A stretch of DNA of 24,789 bases, from the IMG/VR virus record IMGVR_UViG_3300037847_002725, positions 1 to 24,789 of that record; one strand, given 5' to 3'. The stretch's first letter is position 1. Every line of letters starts with the position of its first letter. The notes beneath the pieces were generated by a model. That model did no database searches, had not been told where the DNA came from, and worked only from the letters and a program-made list of their open reading frames with translations. Source of the DNA: a virus. This document shows positions 15,939 to 24,149 of this stretch, one piece after another. The translations under genes were made by a program, and so were the position numbers.

Positions 15939-16249
15939 TACTTCACATCCTTTAGTTTGCTTCTTTCTAAGACCTTGATGTGTTTATCAACTACAGATGG
16001 CATAGTTGGTGCGAGAAGTTTTACCCGATTTTCAATGGCTTTAATTATGTCAGCAGGAGGTGGGTTGCCTGTGCTTATTTCTATGACTTGACTACCATTC
16101 CAATCACAATCATGGTCTGGTGTGTATGAAGATTGAGCGCGGGATTCATTGCGATAAAGCATATCCAACTTGTCCTTTTCAATCATTGAGCCAGTGGCTT
16201 TCAATTCTTTGTAGTGTGCAATTTGAGCATCCAATTCCTTTTCACGCAT
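15938..16249 (-). CDS. Small neck protein candidate, function unknown
   Basis: A 103-residue protein. I chose ATG 16249 (MREKELDAQIAHYK), which has AGGTGGTAATA immediately upstream and overlaps the end of the previous gene by 8 bases; the longer frame upstream lacks a good start signal. The N-terminal half is helical and charged. The C-terminal part, ADIIKAIENRVKLLAPTMPS, then HIKVLERSKLKDVK, contains two amphipathic helices. No family is recognised. Lying between the adaptor and the terminator candidate, it sits where head-closure or neck proteins are found, so a connector role is possible but unproven. Confidence 0.6.
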   Translation of the reverse strand: MREKELDAQIAHYKELKATGSMIEKDKLDMLYRNESRAQSSYTPDHDCDWNGSQVIEISTGNPPPADIIKAIENRVKLLAPTMPSVVDKHIKVLERSKLKDVK

Positions 16250-16700
16250 TATTACCACCTTCGTAATCAAATAGGTTTGGCAACTGGGGTTGTCCGAATT
16301 GGTCAAGTGTCATTTGGTCGGGGTCAATTTCAGGTTCATCTTCTTGATGCCCAAACACCTGTGCTAAATTGCTTTGAGATGCATCTGCTTCTTGTTGCTC
16401 TTGTTGCTCTCGTAATCGTTGTTGCTCGGCTTCCCACGCTGCCGTACGGTTGGCTTCGTGATTGCGTTCTTCTTCACGCACTTTAGGTCCCATTTCTCTT
16501 GGATTCATAAAGATACGACCCATGTTTTTCATACCACGCTTAAATCTAGTCCACTGAGATTCGGGTGGCATAACTGGGTCGGGTTCGGGTTCTTCCTGTT
16601 CCTCTTTGATAATAGCCCATGCCAATGCAAAAGCGGGGTCTGATTTGTGAATGTGTAAATCTCCATACATTACAGAATCATGCAAATGCAAATCAGTCAA
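16242..16700 (-). CDS. Coiled-coil protein carrying the shared DPxxxAW helix motif
   Basis: A 152-residue protein. It starts at TTG 16700, supported by GAGGTGAT five bases upstream and an 8-base overlap with the adaptor stop; no ATG is as well placed. The N-terminus has a small duplication, DLHLHDS (residues 3-9) and DLHIHKS (14-20), rich in His. Residues about 20-32, SDPAFALAWAIIK, resemble the N-terminal helix of the small genes at 18536-19703, here preceded by about 20 extra residues. Then come a Pro/Glu stretch, a basic segment, a Glu/Gln/Arg coiled coil (about 80-105) and an acidic C-terminus. Function unknown; it is probably an accessory head or neck protein. Confidence 0.72.
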   Translation of the reverse strand: MTDLHLHDSVMYGDLHIHKSDPAFALAWAIIKEEQEEPEPDPVMPPESQWTRFKRGMKNMGRIFMNPREMGPKVREEERNHEANRTAAWEAEQQRLREQQEQQEADASQSNLAQVFGHQEDEPEIDPDQMTLDQFGQPQLPNLFDYEGGNNA

Positions 16701-18294
16701 GCGTCATCACCTCAACATATCGTGGTAATGTTTCTGCAACAGACTGTTTGAATAATTGGTATTTTGAACCTAAGTCAATGTTGGTAGTTCCTTCGGGTAT
16801 CAATACTGAACGGTCATCAGCGGTAATCAAATCCATAGCAACCAACTTAGTCACTACTTCTTCAATGGCTTTTTCCACATACCGTTCACCATACACATAA
16901 GTAACTTTGACTGCGTTCCATTCAAAGAATGGATATGAGTTGTTGAAATAGATAATCCCCATTTCTGGGTCAAACCACCAATCACGCAGTCGGCCTTCAT
17001 CACCTGTTTCGTTTGCGCTTTGGTAATCAATCTGCATAGTGCGTTGAATGATTGTCGTGCCAGCAGCATTCAATGTTGTCAAAGGTGTGCCAGCGAGATT
17101 GACACAACCAGTGAATGATGTTGCCGTAGTTCCCGTGTATGACATGACTTCAACCGATGTGCCTGAACCGACCATGACCACACCATGCGAAGGGAATCCT
17201 TCGGTGCTTGCCACATTTACGGTAGTCCCTGCCACACCTGTTGATGTGGTTGTGTTCTCACCTGTTTGGCTAATTTCAATGTTGGTCAAATCAGTGACTG
17301 CAATAGAACATGTTTGGCCACCTTGAGCGCGACGCATGCTTGTAATCTTGATACGACCATTCCCATAATCTGCGTTTGCAGATGCTAAGAACTCATGGTG
17401 AACATTGGCGTTCATTACGCCAGATTCGGAATAGGAATCTTCGTGAGTGTAATTTGGTGATGCAGCAATAGCCGACTTCTTTCGTCTGCCATCTTTGTTA
17501 ATCAGGTCTGCAATTTGTTGTGCCGTTGTGCCAGCGTCAAACGCGTTGTTCCATGTGGAAGATGATGTTCCTTGCGATAATGTGAATACACCACCGCCAC
17601 CAGGTGATAGGAATATAGAATCCCCTGTCAATTCGGTATGGTTCATAATCTTCAACCGTGCTTCAGCAGCGGCTAATTCTTTGTAATCACTACCTTGCCA
17701 CACTTCCAATCGCAATATCTGTTGCACATTGCGGAATAGCAATGGTGTAGTCCCAACATAATCGGTATAGTATCTGCGTCGGTATGGTTTGTATGTGTCA
17801 AAGTTTTTGTATTCAGCGACCTGTAGCATTGGTCGCCATGAGTTGTTTGTGATGTTATCAATACGGTCTTGGTGAACGGTGATAAGATGTTCAACATGTT
17901 TGCGAGTGACTCCACGCAGTTTGCCATTAGTGAAGATTTGGGTGTTGCGTACTACTGCATTGTTAGCGGTGGTATGTGCATATGATAATCCATCAGTGAA
18001 TGCTAATCGTGCATTACCACCGACCAATGTGATACCTGTGATGTCCCGTGATTCAACCAATGTTGCATCACTTTCAATTTCAATTGTATCACCCACTTCA
18101 AAGCCAACCAATCTGAAATCAATTGGGCTGACATCAATAGATGTATCTGTCGCGCTGGCATCAGCGGCTAATGCTACGGGGTCGGCAGGTGGTATTTGCA
18201 GAATGTTGCCCACTTTTTGGGCGGTTGTATATACTGTTCTGTCGGGGTCAATGGGTTGTGGTGCGCGTTCTCCAGGCTGAAATACTGTCGGCAT
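16693..18294 (-). CDS. Head-tail connector (adaptor) candidate with inserted beta-domains
   Basis: A 533-residue protein. The C-terminal part, MGIIYFNNSYPFFEWNAVKV near 445 followed by TYVYGERYVEKAIEEVVTKL near 465, is the pattern of head-tail connector proteins: a strand, a TYxYG turn and then helices that insert between portal subunits. An earlier helical segment, VTRKHVEHLITVHQDRIDNI (about 129-148), may belong to the same core. Two beta-domains are inserted, at about 50-118 (TSIDVSP, VGDTIEIES, LSYAH) and 356-418 (TTVNVASTEGFP, EVMSYTGTTATSFTGC). Typical adaptors are 100-200 residues, so this one is greatly enlarged. ATG 18294 follows a GGGGGGACAAT leader. The gene order before neck and terminator candidates agrees. 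Confidence 0.62.
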   Translation of the reverse strand: MPTVFQPGERAPQPIDPDRTVYTTAQKVGNILQIPPADPVALAADASATDTSIDVSPIDFRLVGFEVGDTIEIESDATLVESRDITGITLVGGNARLAFTDGLSYAHTTANNAVVRNTQIFTNGKLRGVTRKHVEHLITVHQDRIDNITNNSWRPMLQVAEYKNFDTYKPYRRRYYTDYVGTTPLLFRNVQQILRLEVWQGSDYKELAAAEARLKIMNHTELTGDSIFLSPGGGGVFTLSQGTSSSTWNNAFDAGTTAQQIADLINKDGRRKKSAIAASPNYTHEDSYSESGVMNANVHHEFLASANADYGNGRIKITSMRRAQGGQTCSIAVTDLTNIEISQTGENTTTSTGVAGTTVNVASTEGFPSHGVVMVGSGTSVEVMSYTGTTATSFTGCVNLAGTPLTTLNAAGTTIIQRTMQIDYQSANETGDEGRLRDWWFDPEMGIIYFNNSYPFFEWNAVKVTYVYGERYVEKAIEEVVTKLVAMDLITADDRSVLIPEGTTNIDLGSKYQLFKQSVAETLPRYVEVMTLD

Positions 18295-18311
18295 ATTGTC
18301 CCCCCGTCATT

Positions 18312-18536
18312 TCAGCCACCATGTTCAAGTGAATCAAGGTATTGCTGATACATACGCATTGCTTCTTCTTCAGATACACCCATGTGCTTCAATCTTTCAA
18401 TCTCACGCTTCGGGTCCTCTTCAAACCCAATGCGAACATCACTCATCTGTGCTTTACCAACCTCTTCCACTTGTATCAAATACACTTGGTCTTGGAGGAA
18501 TGCGAATGCTTTGTCAGTTGCTTTTTTCCAAATCAT
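18312..18536 (-). CDS. Small protein with a divergent copy of the shared helix
   Basis: A 74-residue protein starting at ATG 18536, overlapping the previous stop in a TAATG junction with GAGGGAGAG just upstream. Residues 7-15, TDKAFAFLQ, align with IDKAWALLK of the gene at 19452-19703, so this looks like a degenerate member of the same N-terminal family. The rest is helical and charged, ending with a short helical repeat-like region (PKREIERLKHMGVSEEEAM). There are no cysteines. No function is recognised. It is the last gene of the five-gene accessory block before the adaptor. Confidence 0.68.
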   Translation of the reverse strand: MIWKKATDKAFAFLQDQVYLIQVEEVGKAQMSDVRIGFEEDPKREIERLKHMGVSEEEAMRMYQQYLDSLEHGG

Positions 18537-18793
18537 TACTCTCCCTCTTCATCTGCTGGCCAGTGTGCCAATCTTTGACACCTTCGGTATTCTTCCATGT
18601 GGGCTTCGTATCCTTGCCCATCACCTGGTTCGTAATCTTCCATTCGTGGCTTTGTGCATGCCATCATGCCCGTTCCTGTGGGTTTAACAGTGCGTGGGTG
18701 TTTGTTGCCACATATAGCACATTCACCGCTTTCTTCTTCACCATCGTATGCCTTTGATTTCAAAATCTGCCATGCACTATCTATTGGATTCAT
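18536..18793 (-). CDS. Small zinc-binding protein with N-terminal NPIDSAW helix
   Basis: An 85-residue protein starting at ATG 18793, overlapping the previous stop by 4 bases (ATGA) with GGAGGGAAGTGA ahead. It begins MNPIDSAWQILKS: Asn as helix cap, Pro at the first turn, then Ile, Ala, Trp, Ile and Leu on one face. After an acidic linker come CAIC (Cys25, Cys28), Cys46 and Cys72, which could hold one zinc ion, though the spacing is irregular. The C-terminus is acidic with several His, Tyr and Arg. No known family is recognised. The context is the head-accessory block with sister genes that share the same first dozen residues. Confidence 0.75.
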   Translation of the reverse strand: MNPIDSAWQILKSKAYDGEEESGECAICGNKHPRTVKPTGTGMMACTKPRMEDYEPGDGQGYEAHMEEYRRCQRLAHWPADEEGE

Positions 18794-19455
18794 TCACTTC
18801 CCTCCTGTAAGAACTTCAATTCTTTCTCAGTTAGAATATCCCCACTCATCAATCTGCTCATCAGTTCATCACGGTCAAATGTGCTTTCGTCTAAATGGTC
18901 GCCCATATTACGGATTCTTATTTGCTCTGGAGATGCTTCGTAAAGTTCTCTTCTGTTCCTTCTGCTGGATGCAATTTCTTGAAGGCGGTTGTGGAGATTG
19001 CGTCGTCTGTTTCCAAAACTACGCTGATACTCCATACGCTCCTCGTCGGTTATCTGTCTTGGAAGTGGAGGTAATGGTTGTGTTTCGCCCCTATCAAATG
19101 CACTGAAGTGTTCAGCGCTTATTGGTGGTCTGCCTCTGCGTTCCAATTCATCACTCATCATTTGCATTGCTTGTCGCATTTCAGGGCGTGTGTGCCTAAA
19201 GAATGGGTTATTCTCTGCACCTATACCACCGCCCATGCCTCTATCTCGTCGTTCCAATTCTTCGCGTATGTGTTGAAGTGCGAGAGCCATATGTGGCCGT
19301 GTCATACGGAATGGGTCAAGCCAATCTAATGGCGTTGGATTCCTATTTTCCATTTCTCTTAGGAAGTAGTGTTCATCATCTAGTTCTGGGTCATCGTCTG
19401 CATCTGGTTCTTCTGCAGATTTGAGAACTGACCATGCATATGCCATAGGATTCAT
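18790..19455 (-). CDS. NPMAYAW-helix protein with an internal duplicated helix
   Basis: A 221-residue protein starting at ATG 19455 in an ATGA overlap. It begins MNPMAYAWSVLKS, the shared N-terminal helix, then an acidic stretch. Two related segments follow at about 47-73 and 83-110: DPFRMTRPHMALALQHI and NPFFRHTRPEMRQAMQMM, each continuing into ELERR plus a Gly turn. This looks like an internal duplication of a 27-residue helical unit. The remainder is Arg- and Glu-rich and ends with a helix-rich segment, ILTEKELKFLQ. It lacks cysteines. I do not recognise the protein; the duplicated amphipathic helices suggest a binding or oligomerising role, which is inference. Confidence 0.75.
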   Translation of the reverse strand: MNPMAYAWSVLKSAEEPDADDDPELDDEHYFLREMENRNPTPLDWLDPFRMTRPHMALALQHIREELERRDRGMGGGIGAENNPFFRHTRPEMRQAMQMMSDELERRGRPPISAEHFSAFDRGETQPLPPLPRQITDEERMEYQRSFGNRRRNLHNRLQEIASSRRNRRELYEASPEQIRIRNMGDHLDESTFDRDELMSRLMSGDILTEKELKFLQEGSE

Positions 19456-19703
19456 CGTTCAGCCTCACATTCTTCACAATGAGGACCGTAATCGCTGAAA
19501 CCACCAATTTCATCAAAGGTTATTCTTTTGCCACACATTTCACATGGGGAAGTGCGATTAGATGCCTGTGCATCTGCGTAATCGTCATCTATCATTCCAT
19601 AATCACCGAACTCAACTGGGTCAAGTTCATCTTCATCTGCTTCATCGTCATCAACCATTCGGAATGCTTTGAGCAATGCCCACGCTTTATCAATGGGACT
19701 CAT
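19452..19703 (-). CDS. Small zinc-ribbon protein with N-terminal SPIDKAW helix
   Basis: An 83-residue protein starting at ATG 19703, overlapping the previous stop by 4 bases and preceded by GGAGGCGAAGCA. It opens MSPIDKAWALLKA, the clearest copy of the shared N-terminal helix. A very acidic linker (residues about 17-46) separates this from a C-terminal zinc ribbon: CEMC at 54-57 and CEEC at 76-79, with His75 beside the second pair. The layout of helix, acidic linker and zinc knuckle suggests a targeting helix tethering a small metal-binding domain. Function unknown; it belongs to a block of five such genes between the head and connector genes. Confidence 0.78.
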   Translation of the reverse strand: MSPIDKAWALLKAFRMVDDDEADEDELDPVEFGDYGMIDDDYADAQASNRTSPCEMCGKRITFDEIGGFSDYGPHCEECEAER

Positions 19704-21566: not shown

Positions 21567-22697
21567 TCACTCCAAATCCCTAATACTGCCTTGTGCGCCA
21601 AAGAATGACACAACTAGTTCACCCATTGTTCGGTAAAGCCCTTCCTGACCTAGACGGTTGATTGCGAATGGGTCGCCCGATTCAATTCCAGATTCAAAGT
21701 ATTGGGTTGGAATTGCGGTTTGAAACCATAGGTAATCAGTATCAAGGTAATACATTCTGCTAATGCCATCAGGTTGAACATCCTTAGATGGGATGATTGG
21801 GACACCGTTGTATGTTGCTACAATGAATCCTGCTTCAATACCTGGGACACCTTTTACACCGTTGAATGATGGAGTAACACGCTTTGTTTCCATGAATCTC
21901 TGTTGAGATTGTAGGAGTTGCTGCACACGCATCAATGTATCATATCCAGTGAAGATAACCTTTGGATTACCACCACGCTTCCAAACTTGTTGGAAGATGG
22001 TGTCAAGGTGGTCAAGGGATAGAGTTCTGTTTGTTCCTTTTGTTCCAGATACACTTACTTCAGCACTGTGGAAGTCTGCGCTTCCATCACGAGTGATTGA
22101 ATACATGTCGTGGTCAGTTGCTGCACCGTATGTTCCGCCCATTGAATCTGGGTTGGATGTCAAACGGTCAAGTGATTCAAAGTCATTACCCGCTGGGTTG
22201 TCAATGTCATCAGTTAGCATTCGGTTCACATGGTCAGCGTGGTGCTTGCCCATTTCTTCCTTCAGTACTTGTCTGATGTCGCCAAGACCGTCATCCTTGT
22301 CAGCAAGGAAGATTGCGACTTCACTCATGTCAAATGTGTGAGCAATGGTCTTTGGTTTGCATGCAACATGTAGGAATGTTGGTTTGGTGGTTTCTGGCAA
22401 GGTTGCATTTTCAGCAACACCGCCACCCTTAACGAAGGATGGTTTGCCAGTAATGATTCTCCAACCAGACTTTTCCCAGGGTTTCTTTGGTAGGATTGAG
22501 AACGCGTTGAACTCTTGGTTCAATTGCGACCAAACCTTTCGGCCATAGATTGCCTGATATGTTCCTGCTGTTGTGCTTAACATTGGTGCGTCTGCTTTGA
22601 GAATGTCTGAGCCAGCGTATGAATATCCGCTAACATTTCCTGCTCCGTAGTAGTATCGCTCCATGTCCTGTATTGTGTTAATATAATTTCGTGCCAT
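21567..22697 (-). CDS. Major capsid protein (HK97 fold)
   Basis: A 376-residue protein starting at ATG 22697 (MARNYINTIQDM), two bases after the protease stop, with its ribosome-binding site GGGGGGGTGAG inside the last codons of that gene. The size and mixed alpha/beta sequence fit HK97-fold shells. A helical stretch, RQVLKEEMGKHHADHVNRML (about 140-160), is a good candidate for the spine helix, and NPKVIFTGYDTLMRVQQLLQ (near 245-265) fits the peripheral domain; the end, LGQEGLYRTMGELVVSFFG, fits a closing strand and helix. It has no acidic N-terminal scaffold domain, consistent with a separate scaffold upstream. Gene order after the prohead protease makes the call strong. Confidence 0.88.
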   Translation of the reverse strand: MARNYINTIQDMERYYYGAGNVSGYSYAGSDILKADAPMLSTTAGTYQAIYGRKVWSQLNQEFNAFSILPKKPWEKSGWRIITGKPSFVKGGGVAENATLPETTKPTFLHVACKPKTIAHTFDMSEVAIFLADKDDGLGDIRQVLKEEMGKHHADHVNRMLTDDIDNPAGNDFESLDRLTSNPDSMGGTYGAATDHDMYSITRDGSADFHSAEVSVSGTKGTNRTLSLDHLDTIFQQVWKRGGNPKVIFTGYDTLMRVQQLLQSQQRFMETKRVTPSFNGVKGVPGIEAGFIVATYNGVPIIPSKDVQPDGISRMYYLDTDYLWFQTAIPTQYFESGIESGDPFAINRLGQEGLYRTMGELVVSFFGAQGSIRDLE

Positions 22698-22699
22698 TA

Positions 22700-23545
22700 T
22701 CACTCACCCCCCCTTAGAGCCTTTGACGCAAGGTTGTGGACTTCTGCCCAATCCATTGTTGCCAAAGATTCTGTGGATGGAATTGAAACGGTTGGTGCGG
22801 ATTTGCGGATTTCTCCGCCACCGACTGCACCAGTACCGATACTGTCAATGCGAGTTGCTAGTTCAAGAACTGCCTTTTCAAGACGGTCAACTGGCGCACG
22901 GGCATCGTAAGATGCGTGTGCTTCAGCGTTTGCCTTTGCCATCAGTTCGCTCTGCAATCTTTCAGTGAAAGCGTGGTTGAGTTCATCTTTGAAGTTCTGT
23001 TCCATTGCTGCTGCTTTGAAAACCTCATATGCTTCTTCAAGTTGAGCGCCAGATACATTCTCCTTCAATACAAATTGGTTGCCCTTTGGAGGACTCCACT
23101 TGTCTTGAGATGCACGGATAGCGAACTTGTTGCCCTTTCCACCGCTTCCAAAATTAGCCTTTGGTGCGTTAGAGCCTTCACCAACAATGCCCAATGGTGG
23201 TTGCCCACGATGGGATGCGCCATCTTCACCTGGTGCGTATCCCTTCTCAAGTGCTTCAAAGTGGCTTCGGGCTTGTGCCGTATCCACTCCAGCGCTCTTT
23301 AGGGTGTTTTCCATCCAGTTGAGATAGTCCATTGTGATGACATCATCAAATGATTGACCCTTTTCATAGCCACCATCATCCGAGTAGTTCATCTTCTCGT
23401 CTTTCTCTTCTTTCTTATCGTCTTTCTTGTCTTTGTCCTTATTGCCCAAAAACGCTGGTTTCTTATCTTCACCATCTTCTTCAAGACGCTTTGATAGGCG
23501 TTCCAGCACATTATGCAATTGTTCCACTACTTGTTCTTCTGCCAT
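22700..23545 (-). CDS. Scaffold protein from an internal start in the protease gene
   Basis: Within the protease gene, in the same frame, ATG 23545 (MAEEQVVEQLHNVLER) is preceded by AAGGAGGATAAAACT, one of the strongest ribosome-binding sites in the window, at eight-base spacing. It would make a 281-residue protein lacking the protease domain. It has a leucine-rich coiled coil, a Lys/Asp/Glu-rich linker (about 25-50), and a long helical segment ending near the capsid gene. Lambda uses the same plan (C and Nu3): the free scaffold is made in excess over the protease fusion. The signal is seen directly; use of it is inferred. Confidence 0.75.
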   Translation of the reverse strand: MAEEQVVEQLHNVLERLSKRLEEDGEDKKPAFLGNKDKDKKDDKKEEKDEKMNYSDDGGYEKGQSFDDVITMDYLNWMENTLKSAGVDTAQARSHFEALEKGYAPGEDGASHRGQPPLGIVGEGSNAPKANFGSGGKGNKFAIRASQDKWSPPKGNQFVLKENVSGAQLEEAYEVFKAAAMEQNFKDELNHAFTERLQSELMAKANAEAHASYDARAPVDRLEKAVLELATRIDSIGTGAVGGGEIRKSAPTVSIPSTESLATMDWAEVHNLASKALRGGE

Positions 23546-24094
23546 AGTTTTATCCTCCTTCAATATCCTGAATGTGGATTCTGTGTTTATGCCCTTCTCA
23601 CATATTGTCACTTCGTGAAGTTCCATATCTTGGATTTCACGGTATGACCCTCGCATTCCATCGGACTTATTGACACGCTTGAAAGCCTGTCCTCCAATGG
23701 AAAAGGCACGAAGGTTGCCTTTACGAATCTCGGAAGCCACTTCACGGGCTTTCTCAATATCGTTGCGGAGTTTGATAACAACAAACAGCCCTGTGTCATC
23801 CACTTCGGATTTCCACACACGACCATTTGAATCTGTATATGATGGGACAACATTGCCCACTTGAATGTTAGAATGTGCCAACTGCACATTGGTGAACGAT
23901 GGGTCAGCCATGAACTTCTTGAATGCTTTATTCAAAGCACCTGTGGTAATCAAGTCCCCTTGCTTATCCACGAGTTCAACACTTGCATATCCAGCAATAA
24001 TGAGGTCATCAACAGACTGAGCCTTGAGCAAAACCGCCCCGTTTGGGTGGATATTTTGCTGACGAGCCGCTGCTATAACCATGTTCAACGACAT
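22700..24094 (-). CDS. Prohead maturation protease fused to scaffold (HK97 family, U35-like)
   Basis: A 464-residue protein from ATG 24094 (MSLNMVIAAARQQ). An upstream TTG at 24136 would add 14 residues; I prefer 24094 because the intervening DNA holds two dyads and no start signal fits well. Residues about 32-170 are the serine protease: IIAGYASVELVDKQGD near 32, catalytic His74 in QLAHSN, Ser132 in RAFSIGGQAFKR, and Glu161 in LHEVTICEKG, the usual order for this family. Residues from about 184 are a scaffold: leucine-rich coil, a Lys/Asp/Glu run near 205-235, then a long helical C-terminus. It cleaves scaffold and capsid N-termini during head maturation. An in-frame internal start makes a separate scaffold. 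Confidence 0.9.
   Translation of the reverse strand: MSLNMVIAAARQQNIHPNGAVLLKAQSVDDLIIAGYASVELVDKQGDLITTGALNKAFKKFMADPSFTNVQLAHSNIQVGNVVPSYTDSNGRVWKSEVDDTGLFVVIKLRNDIEKAREVASEIRKGNLRAFSIGGQAFKRVNKSDGMRGSYREIQDMELHEVTICEKGINTESTFRILKEDKTMAEEQVVEQLHNVLERLSKRLEEDGEDKKPAFLGNKDKDKKDDKKEEKDEKMNYSDDGGYEKGQSFDDVITMDYLNWMENTLKSAGVDTAQARSHFEALEKGYAPGEDGASHRGQPPLGIVGEGSNAPKANFGSGGKGNKFAIRASQDKWSPPKGNQFVLKENVSGAQLEEAYEVFKAAAMEQNFKDELNHAFTERLQSELMAKANAEAHASYDARAPVDRLEKAVLELATRIDSIGTGAVGGGEIRKSAPTVSIPSTESLATMDWAEVHNLASKALRGGE
23551..23560 (-). promoter_or_regulatory. Strong internal ribosome-binding site for the scaffold
   Basis: The coding strand reads AAGGAGGATA inside the protease gene, eight bases before an in-frame ATG at 23545. 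It is a better match to the 16S 3' end than most gene starts in this window and falls exactly at the boundary between protease and scaffold domains. Confidence 0.72.
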
Positions 24095-24110
24095 GCCGAT
24101 GTTCTGTGAT

Positions 24111-24149
24111 GGTATATTATACCACCTGTAATACAACTGATACTATCAG
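24111..24149 (-). promoter_or_regulatory. Two adjacent dyads in the portal-protease gap
   Basis: The coding strand holds CTGATAGTATCAG (24149-24137) and GGTATAATATACC (24123-24111). Each has perfect six-base arms around one central base, and the centres are 26 bases apart. The second is longer if one mismatch is allowed (19 bases, GGTGGTATAATATACCATC). The stop codon of the portal gene lies in the first dyad. One-base centres do not favour RNA hairpins, so protein-binding operator sites are more likely. TATAATATA could also be a TATA-like promoter element about 20-27 bases before ATG 24094. This is the largest gap in the window. Confidence 0.4.

Follow-up and report, generated by a model that had tools for sequence, protein, structure and literature searches.

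Tag copies in the window

A short helical element that opens several otherwise unrelated genes, here called the tag, was analysed in a stretch of viral DNA (the window) comprising the first 24,789 bases of the 64,422-base IMG/VR record IMGVR_UViG_3300037847_002725 (G000). Another record, G001, is a near twin of G000. The tag copies of the window, scored with a weight matrix that is described below, and one rejected candidate are the following:

19668–19700, minus strand: tag SPIDKAWALLK, residues 2–12 of the open reading frame (ORF) 19452–19703 (83 amino acids, C-terminal CxxC pairs); matrix score 32.2
19420–19452, minus strand: tag NPMAYAWSVLK, residues 2–12 of ORF 18790–19455 (221 amino acids, duplicated helical segment by eye); matrix score 31.2
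18758–18790, minus strand: tag NPIDSAWQILK, residues 2–12 of ORF 18536–18793 (85 amino acids, CxxC); matrix score 29.8
16605–16637, minus strand: PAFALAWAIIK, probably a weaker tag, close to the N-end of ORF 16242–16700 (152 amino acids, charged); matrix score 15.2
18312–18536, minus strand: ORF of 74 amino acids with TDKAFAFLQ, rejected as a tag carrier; not among the scores >6

An earlier, sequence-only reading of this DNA had stated that three consecutive genes begin with the tag. This was confirmed: all three are ATG-started, carry the tag from residue 2 and score about 30–32. When the window was translated in six frames, the pattern given by that reading matched 4 times, each time in a gene of the minus strand. 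Two further genes had been added to the tagged set. In the gene at 16242–16700 the claimed DPAFALAWAIIK does occupy residues 21–32 of a TTG-started ORF, and from an internal ATG the copy would sit about 10 residues from the start; the match itself is weak, and because it scores 15.2 compared with 30–32 for the other three, the copy is regarded as probable and weaker. The TDKAFAFLQ of the gene at 18312–18536 was ruled out as a tag copy by the matrix scan of the 64-kb record, in which it is not one of the 17 places scoring >6. A look for homologues of these two genes in six other genomes gave none. The 19452 gene has a relative in another capsid locus (L005), with kinship judged by eye, which keeps the tag as MNPIDQAWVIIK.

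Sequence and recurrence of the tag

The window encodes the capsid protein and, beside it, a prohead protease:

21567–22703, minus strand: major capsid protein, SU10 type (PF17236, 1.2e-9; phrog_24667, 1.3e-57)
22700–24136, minus strand: prohead protease, S78 type, with a long charged C-terminal part (PF04586, 7.7e-10, residues 45–194)

The search of IMG/VR with the capsid protein resulted in 595 matching stretches. Some of the loci and records compared here are near-duplicates. The helix form in the relatives is [NST]-[PA]-[FMLI]-[DEN]-x-A-W-x-[LVI]-L-K. In the best 80 of the 595 capsid loci a slightly widened pattern matched 49 times, in 29 loci; every match is on the strand of the capsid gene, and 40 of the 49 directly follow Met. 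In the scan of 196 loci and the window, the tag stood at a possible start in 216 distinct proteins. Once the tag had been cut off, the remainders of these proteins fell into 109 clusters (BLASTP, 1e-3), 68 of which were singletons. There is good support for the tag as a modular helix attached to unrelated partners.

Three of the 109 cluster representatives (T001, T012, T023) were judged spurious, leaving 106 for the weight matrix and the count of the residue after the Lys; the matrix was built partly from the same records that were later scanned. Alignment A1 holds 104 sequences, with five of the 109 representatives omitted. The Ala, the aromatic residue (Trp or Phe), the hydrophobic pair and the Lys were requirements of the tag search itself. 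Within this constraint (n = 109), Trp was found in 103 and Leu before Lys in 96 cases. Outside it, the second tag position was Pro in 72 and Ala in 29 of the 109, and the residue after Met was Asn in 45, Thr in 15 and Ser in 13, followed by others. The later positions are Phe/Met/Leu/Ile, then mostly Asp/Glu/Asn, any residue, Ala, Trp, any residue, Leu/Val/Ile, Leu and Lys. The codons of the tag proline were used nearly equally (23, 17, 16 and 16); as all four are in use, selection acts on the protein.

At a matrix score ≥12, 100 places were detected in 8 records (two of them near-identical) compared with 1 for the 11-mers read backwards. A DNA pattern for the tag matched 34 times, in all but one of 17 records, compared with 0 matches of the control, and a similar pattern shifted one base out of frame gave 0 matches in the 17 records. 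A strict DNA pattern, which is blind to the virus group and covers only the M-[NSKR]-P forms of the tag, matched 105 stretches of IMG/VR. In a collection of 84,980 cellular genomes (species) the same pattern, covering part of the tag forms, gave 0 matches. No paper listed by the literature search describes this tag in its title or in the abstract shown.

Virus group

The capsid protein matches 11 records of the phage collection, all with less than 60% identity, which belong to haloarchaeal viruses (HVTV-1, HCTV-1, HCTV-5 and their kin) and to viruses assigned to methanogen-type hosts. Farther on in the 64-kb record a terminase and a portal protein are encoded, the Pfam match of the portal being just under the cut-off. 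According to PMC10160649, magroviruses are assigned to Marine Group II archaea and combine kinship to haloviruses with a capsid protein, an S78-type protease, a portal and a terminase; the window's record resembles them in this kinship, in these genes and in genome size. The record is of the magrovirus type, as the halovirus-like capsid protein, portal, terminase and S78 protease were all found. The capsid relatives and the literature suggest a Marine Group II archaeon as host.

The records detected with the strict DNA pattern belong largely to the same lineage. Among the 105 stretches, 77 distinct records were tested and 59 of them encode the same capsid protein. The contigs of the 26 other stretches either had turned up in the capsid search or are among those tested. 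Of the 18 tested records without the capsid gene, 5 have a terminase and one more weakly matches another late protein. G017 and G072, which are among the three largest of these 18, resemble magrovirus fragments by eye, having chaperonin-like, polymerase-like and clamp-loader-like genes.

Upstream of the protease, at 24146–29749 of G000, there is an ORF of 1,867 residues with CxxC pairs of the zinc type and a segment whose match to the ATP-dependent DNA ligase domain falls just short of the cut-off. In five tag-bearing records (G030, G047, G037, G056 and G076) the capsid-protein match contains one TGA.

Position in the genome

The setting of the tag was counted in seven records of 102–116 kb; the window's own record was excluded as a near duplicate of G001. 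These records hold 8–15 strong copies (score ≥16) each. On the capsid-gene strand, which holds 62–70% of the coding sequence, 76 of the 77 strong copies were found, and 96 of the 100 places with a score ≥12 in the eight records. If the records are circular, which is an assumption as no end repeats were found in them, all the strong copies lie between −32.3 and +35.3 kb relative to the capsid gene. The strong copies are near head and tail genes and form up to three islands: 12–32 kb upstream of the capsid gene, 3–8 kb after it and 30–35 kb after it. In 35 capsid-bearing records 116 of 116 tags share the strand of the capsid gene and in a further 17 records 33 of 34, resulting in 149 of 150 pattern matches, with some of the records near-duplicates. 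The motif is nearly confined to the late-gene strand. The capsid-to-neck block in which that reading had placed the tag turned out to be too narrow a setting, because many copies lie upstream of the terminase or about 30 kb beyond the capsid gene. Two tag-bearing frames of the opposite strand, G000 46917–47312 and G017 60477–61274, are located within the same region as other tagged genes.

Internal and C-terminal copies

The modularity of the helix was upheld by the analysis; the N-terminal position given for it at first is too narrow. The tag was found in 59 non-N-terminal contexts (56 after merging the near-duplicates), although in a few of them a missed start codon could make the copy N-terminal. 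Gly or Ser directly precedes the motif in 40 of the 56. A 976-residue frame of G023 carries four internal copies. In the window's record, internal copies are found at 53473, 52203 and 49468, each before a module, and C-terminal copies at the ends of the proteins at 50138 and 47262. In the case of the KYR domain, the tag stands in front in 10 of 13 distinct cases and behind in 1 of 13, the latter in the window's own virus. The tag is therefore kept at either end of the domain.

Two of the tagged domain types have untagged relatives in other phages. Those of the basic KSHVVVA-type domain, tagged at G000 54705, occur in 47 phage records and those of the tagged HD domain of locus L168 in 129. In six opened phage regions with relatives of one or the other type (five of them annotated), the tag was absent from all six, the best matrix score being 7.5. 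Among these untagged relatives, that of cyanophage KBS-S-2A lies between head-morphogenesis and capsid genes, and the HD gene of an Aggregatibacter phage is near an annotated minor head gene.

Proteins carrying the tag

The tagged proteins (the cargo) were characterised by Pfam scans and by structure models. HD_4 and DUF6321 were detected above the cut-offs and a SLOG-type YAcAr domain just under the cut-off. A zinc-ribbon-like cargo was recognised by eye, and small basic proteins are also among the cargo. A metalloprotease-like cargo with HExxH was likewise recognised by eye only, with no Pfam match. Of the 10 DUF6321 proteins, 7 were first counted as untagged; among the five of these that were inspected, three have a weaker variant (of the SPLEISMAVVK and TPFEISMAILK type) and two a more degenerate one.

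The YHGTT cargo (alignment A2, seven proteins) was modelled with a pLDDT of 72. The tag forms a separate helix of low confidence at residues 3–14 of the model, followed by a low-confidence linker. Without the tag, the best structural match was Tpt1 (8tg3), with Z 10.2 and rmsd 2.7 over 92 residues; Rhs toxin domains, Arr and TreX followed at Z 7–8. Foldseek resulted in six viral matches and in no match at E 0.001 or better against the PDB, and the Pfam PARP family was matched at E 0.12 only. In its fold, the modelled cargo matches the ADP-ribosyltransferase superfamily.

Two side observations were made on tagged proteins. In the YHGTT cargoes (loci L117, L109, L108, L091, L094, L113 and L122) a conserved linker, R-Q-[ST]-T-L-G-E-[FY]-H-P-D-[FL]-P-S-P, directly follows the tag. 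An HMG-CoA-lyase-like gene (PF00682, 1.3e-25) is found among the tagged genes at G000 47233–48135, and a similar one, by eye, at G017 58992–59831.

The lysine end and a proposed cleavage site

The residue following the tag Lys was Ala, Ser or Gly in 57 of 106 cases, compared with a background of 21%, and it was never Pro. The LLK end of the tag resembles the ILK/LLK of the capsid protein and the ILK of the protease, where the proposed cleavage sites of the window are located:

22590–22604, minus strand: capsid ILKAD, codons 34–38, proposed cleavage site (comparison of capsid N-termini)
23558–23566, minus strand: protease ILK, residues 191–193, at the end of the S78 domain, proposed cleavage site (6 of 6 other genomes)

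All the magrovirus-type capsid proteins compared have [DE][IL]LK|[AS]D[AS]P about 34 residues from the start, after a more variable stretch. In the protease ORF, [RS]ILK followed by Glu or Gln stands at the end of the S78 domain in all six other genomes. The tag itself was not found at the protease N-terminus, where the first conserved stretch is preceded only by LLK, ILK or a similar triplet. Two KYR-domain proteins keep just LIK|A or VLK|A before the domain. The matching places of the capsid protein and the protease read MSK|AD and VSK|AD in HVTV-1 and VSK|AD and VSK|AK in HCTV-1. Such co-variation of the Lys sites would be expected of a single protease whose preference has shifted, although only two lineages were compared and both sites could be structural. 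HK97 cuts its capsid protein after a Lys. The literature search gave no citable published cleavage site for HVTV-1 or HK97.

Another short motif in the same genome

The motif LP[DN][LI]F was detected 9 times in frames of at least 60 residues of the window's record and 10 times in its near twin. It occurs in frames of the late strand as well as of the opposite one, and six other magrovirus-type genomes have no copy. The copies in the window's record are:

Window 16242–16700, C-end; G000 26746, 26788, 50393, 51598, 51652, 57603, 59197 and 59238: LP[DN][LI]F

One copy ends its frame; sliding-clamp binding motifs likewise stand at the last residues of the frame.

Function of the tag

The near confinement of the tag to the late strand, the kinds of partners, their untagged relatives and the LK end fit a capsid-loading signal like that of T4. 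The helix is probably such a signal, and possibly it is trimmed by the prohead protease. The proposal of the sequence-only reading that the helix targets the capsid or docks to the scaffold was supported in part.

In the proposed mechanism, a short amphipathic helix would open with a cap residue, commonly Asn, Ser or Thr, followed by Pro or Ala, and its face of Phe/Met/Leu/Ile, Ala, Trp and Leu would dock inside the growing prohead. Candidates for the dock are the capsid protein, the part of the protease ORF that resembles a scaffold, and some other core protein. The carrier would be drawn into the head wherever the tag sits: at the N-end, between fused modules or at the C-end. Cleavage behind the Lys by the prohead protease, of the kind proposed for capsid ILK|AD and protease ILK|E, may then release the partner. 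The cargo would leave with the DNA and act on the host or protect the genome. It would include ADP-ribosyltransferase-like, HD and SLOG-like proteins, possible GNAT and metalloprotease proteins, and small basic and zinc-ribbon-like proteins.

A wider and more tentative version, for which the chance is judged somewhat short of even, is that the magrovirus-type viruses run a general effector delivery. A single position-independent helix, released by the protease, would load into the head some ten or more proteins per genome, which are rapidly exchanged and would be injected together with the DNA: ADP-ribosyltransferases, possible acetyltransferases and metalloproteases, and proteins that bind nucleotides or nucleic acids. 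New cargo from other phages would be enlisted by gaining the tag.

The sequences themselves show a motif that recurs at the protein level, its modularity, its virus lineage, its late-gene setting and the similar LK ends, whereas docking, packaging, cleavage and ejection of the tagged proteins are inferred. Several results weigh against a capsid-loading signal. The T4 signals are terminal, and the 59 internal and C-terminal contexts depart from this. Copies on the opposite strand occur at G000 47262, G002 5025 and G017 60740 and 60920, and 2 of the 13 KYR-domain proteins are without the tag. The matrix detected no tag in the 30–41 kb regions of HVTV-1, HCTV-1 and the Methanofastidiosa virus vir519, which have related capsid proteins. 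The capsid protein of vir519 has no such Lys site, in the protease both the ILK that closes the S78 domain and the one close to the start may be structural, and the residue after the tag Lys varies, including Glu, Asn, Gln and Met. As to the cargo, a Pfam scan of 104 proteins gave 20 families at E 0.01 or better, each matched by a single protein, and most of the cargo is without recognised function. A possible GNAT family (alignment A3) was noted by eye, and its label stays a guess because the model is poor (pLDDT 55) and no Pfam match was above the cut-off.

Short shared helices with a fixed Trp, together with internal and C-terminal copies, are typical of motifs that bind a hub. The helix might accordingly recruit the late proteins to a host or viral late factor outside the prohead, such as a chaperone, the proteasome or the packaging motor. 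The recurrence of LP[DN][LI]F on late and early proteins of the same genome indicates that hub-type motifs may occur there. However, the tag keeps to the late region and its strict pattern is absent from the cellular collection; moreover, some of the cargo resembles known injected proteins and the LK end is like the capsid and protease sites. Binding to such a hub is considered unlikely.

A lower probability still is given to a motif that is mainly a processing site or propeptide. In this reading virion proteins and fused polyproteins would be cleaved behind the Lys by the prohead protease, the residues ahead of it would do no more than shape the site, and there would be no separate targeting. 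The Lys end with small residues favoured next, capsid ILK|AD and protease ILK|E, the copies between modules (up to four per ORF) and the KYR proteins with only LIK|A or VLK|A would all agree with it. Nevertheless, the most constrained residues of the tag (Pro/Ala, Phe/Met, Asp/Glu, Ala and Trp) are absent from the capsid and protease sites, and this half of the tag should therefore do something beyond cleavage.

An amphipathic membrane anchor acting in assembly or lysis is highly improbable. The mean hydrophobic moment of the tag, 0.47, is higher than the 0.28 of 11-mers from the cargo parts; however, an acidic or Asn residue two before the Ala, a Lys end and a near-fixed Ala-Trp are atypical of membrane helices, and the internal positions in multi-module proteins also speak against it. 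The chance of a nucleic-acid element in the start region, or of functionless leftovers of duplication, is close to nil: although most copies directly follow Met, as in the 80 loci, the free variation of synonymous codons and the copies deep inside ORFs and at C-ends rule out a gene-start signal.

If the helix is a capsid-loading signal, the tag would make it possible to tell from sequence alone which proteins an entire group of uncultured viruses is likely to inject, and the products of dozens of unknown genes would become candidates for host takeover or counter-defence. It would mean T4-style cargo loading at a larger scale in archaeal-type tailed viruses, with the signal at either end or inside the protein. 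It would also provide a cleavage rule for the prohead protease and possibly a short handle for loading foreign proteins into the capsid. The delivery of effectors would then concern the viruses of some of the most abundant archaea of the ocean.

Comparison with known systems

The tag is unmentioned in the accessible main text on magroviruses (PMC10160649), where the words "motif", "tag" and "N-terminal" are absent. The polyvalent proteins of phages and plasmids are described in PMC5512222 as large and multi-module, with domains of the effector type, many of them expected to be packaged and injected. The large multi-tag ORFs look like candidate members; in contrast, the common short tag also marks small single proteins here, and the modules are mostly without Pfam assignment. 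The Dar proteins of P1 are head proteins co-ejected with the DNA, and DarA loses an N-terminal piece to the prohead protease (PMC12810830); P1 is a bacterial phage, and no shared short tag is mentioned for Dar in the accessible part of that source.

Among the haloviruses, HVTV-1 was isolated on Haloarcula; its gp115 (KC117377, annotated as zeta toxin) is, like the multi-tag ORFs, a multi-domain protein of the head region with LKD elements repeated before its modules, as judged by eye, but has no tag-matrix match in the scanned region. It was observed separately that gp115 (L243 18622–22563) repeats AA[QE]S[IV]LKD..WVSDPTEQAPNRW before the modules, which recalls the internal tags, and ends in a region that is ADP-ribosyltransferase-like by eye.

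The closest comparison is with the capsid-targeting sequence (CTS) of T4. The internal proteins of T4 carry N-terminal propeptides of 10–19 residues, with targeting residues ahead of processing residues, and Alt, a packaged and ejected ADP-ribosyltransferase, has a 7-residue propeptide (PMC9026906). In both systems (IPI–IPIII and Alt in T4) a short shared peptide is found on divergent proteins encoded with the head genes, and a prohead protease is present. The presence of an ADP-ribosyltransferase among the packaged proteins of T4 has its likeness in the cargo here, and a two-part design of targeting and processing may be common to both. The tag differs in being an Ala-Trp helix that ends in Lys, in having more partners and an S78-type protease, in belonging to archaeal-type viruses and in being known here from genes alone. 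It was not filed as a T4-type CTS, because its copies are not confined to the termini. On this evidence the tag may work like the T4 signal.

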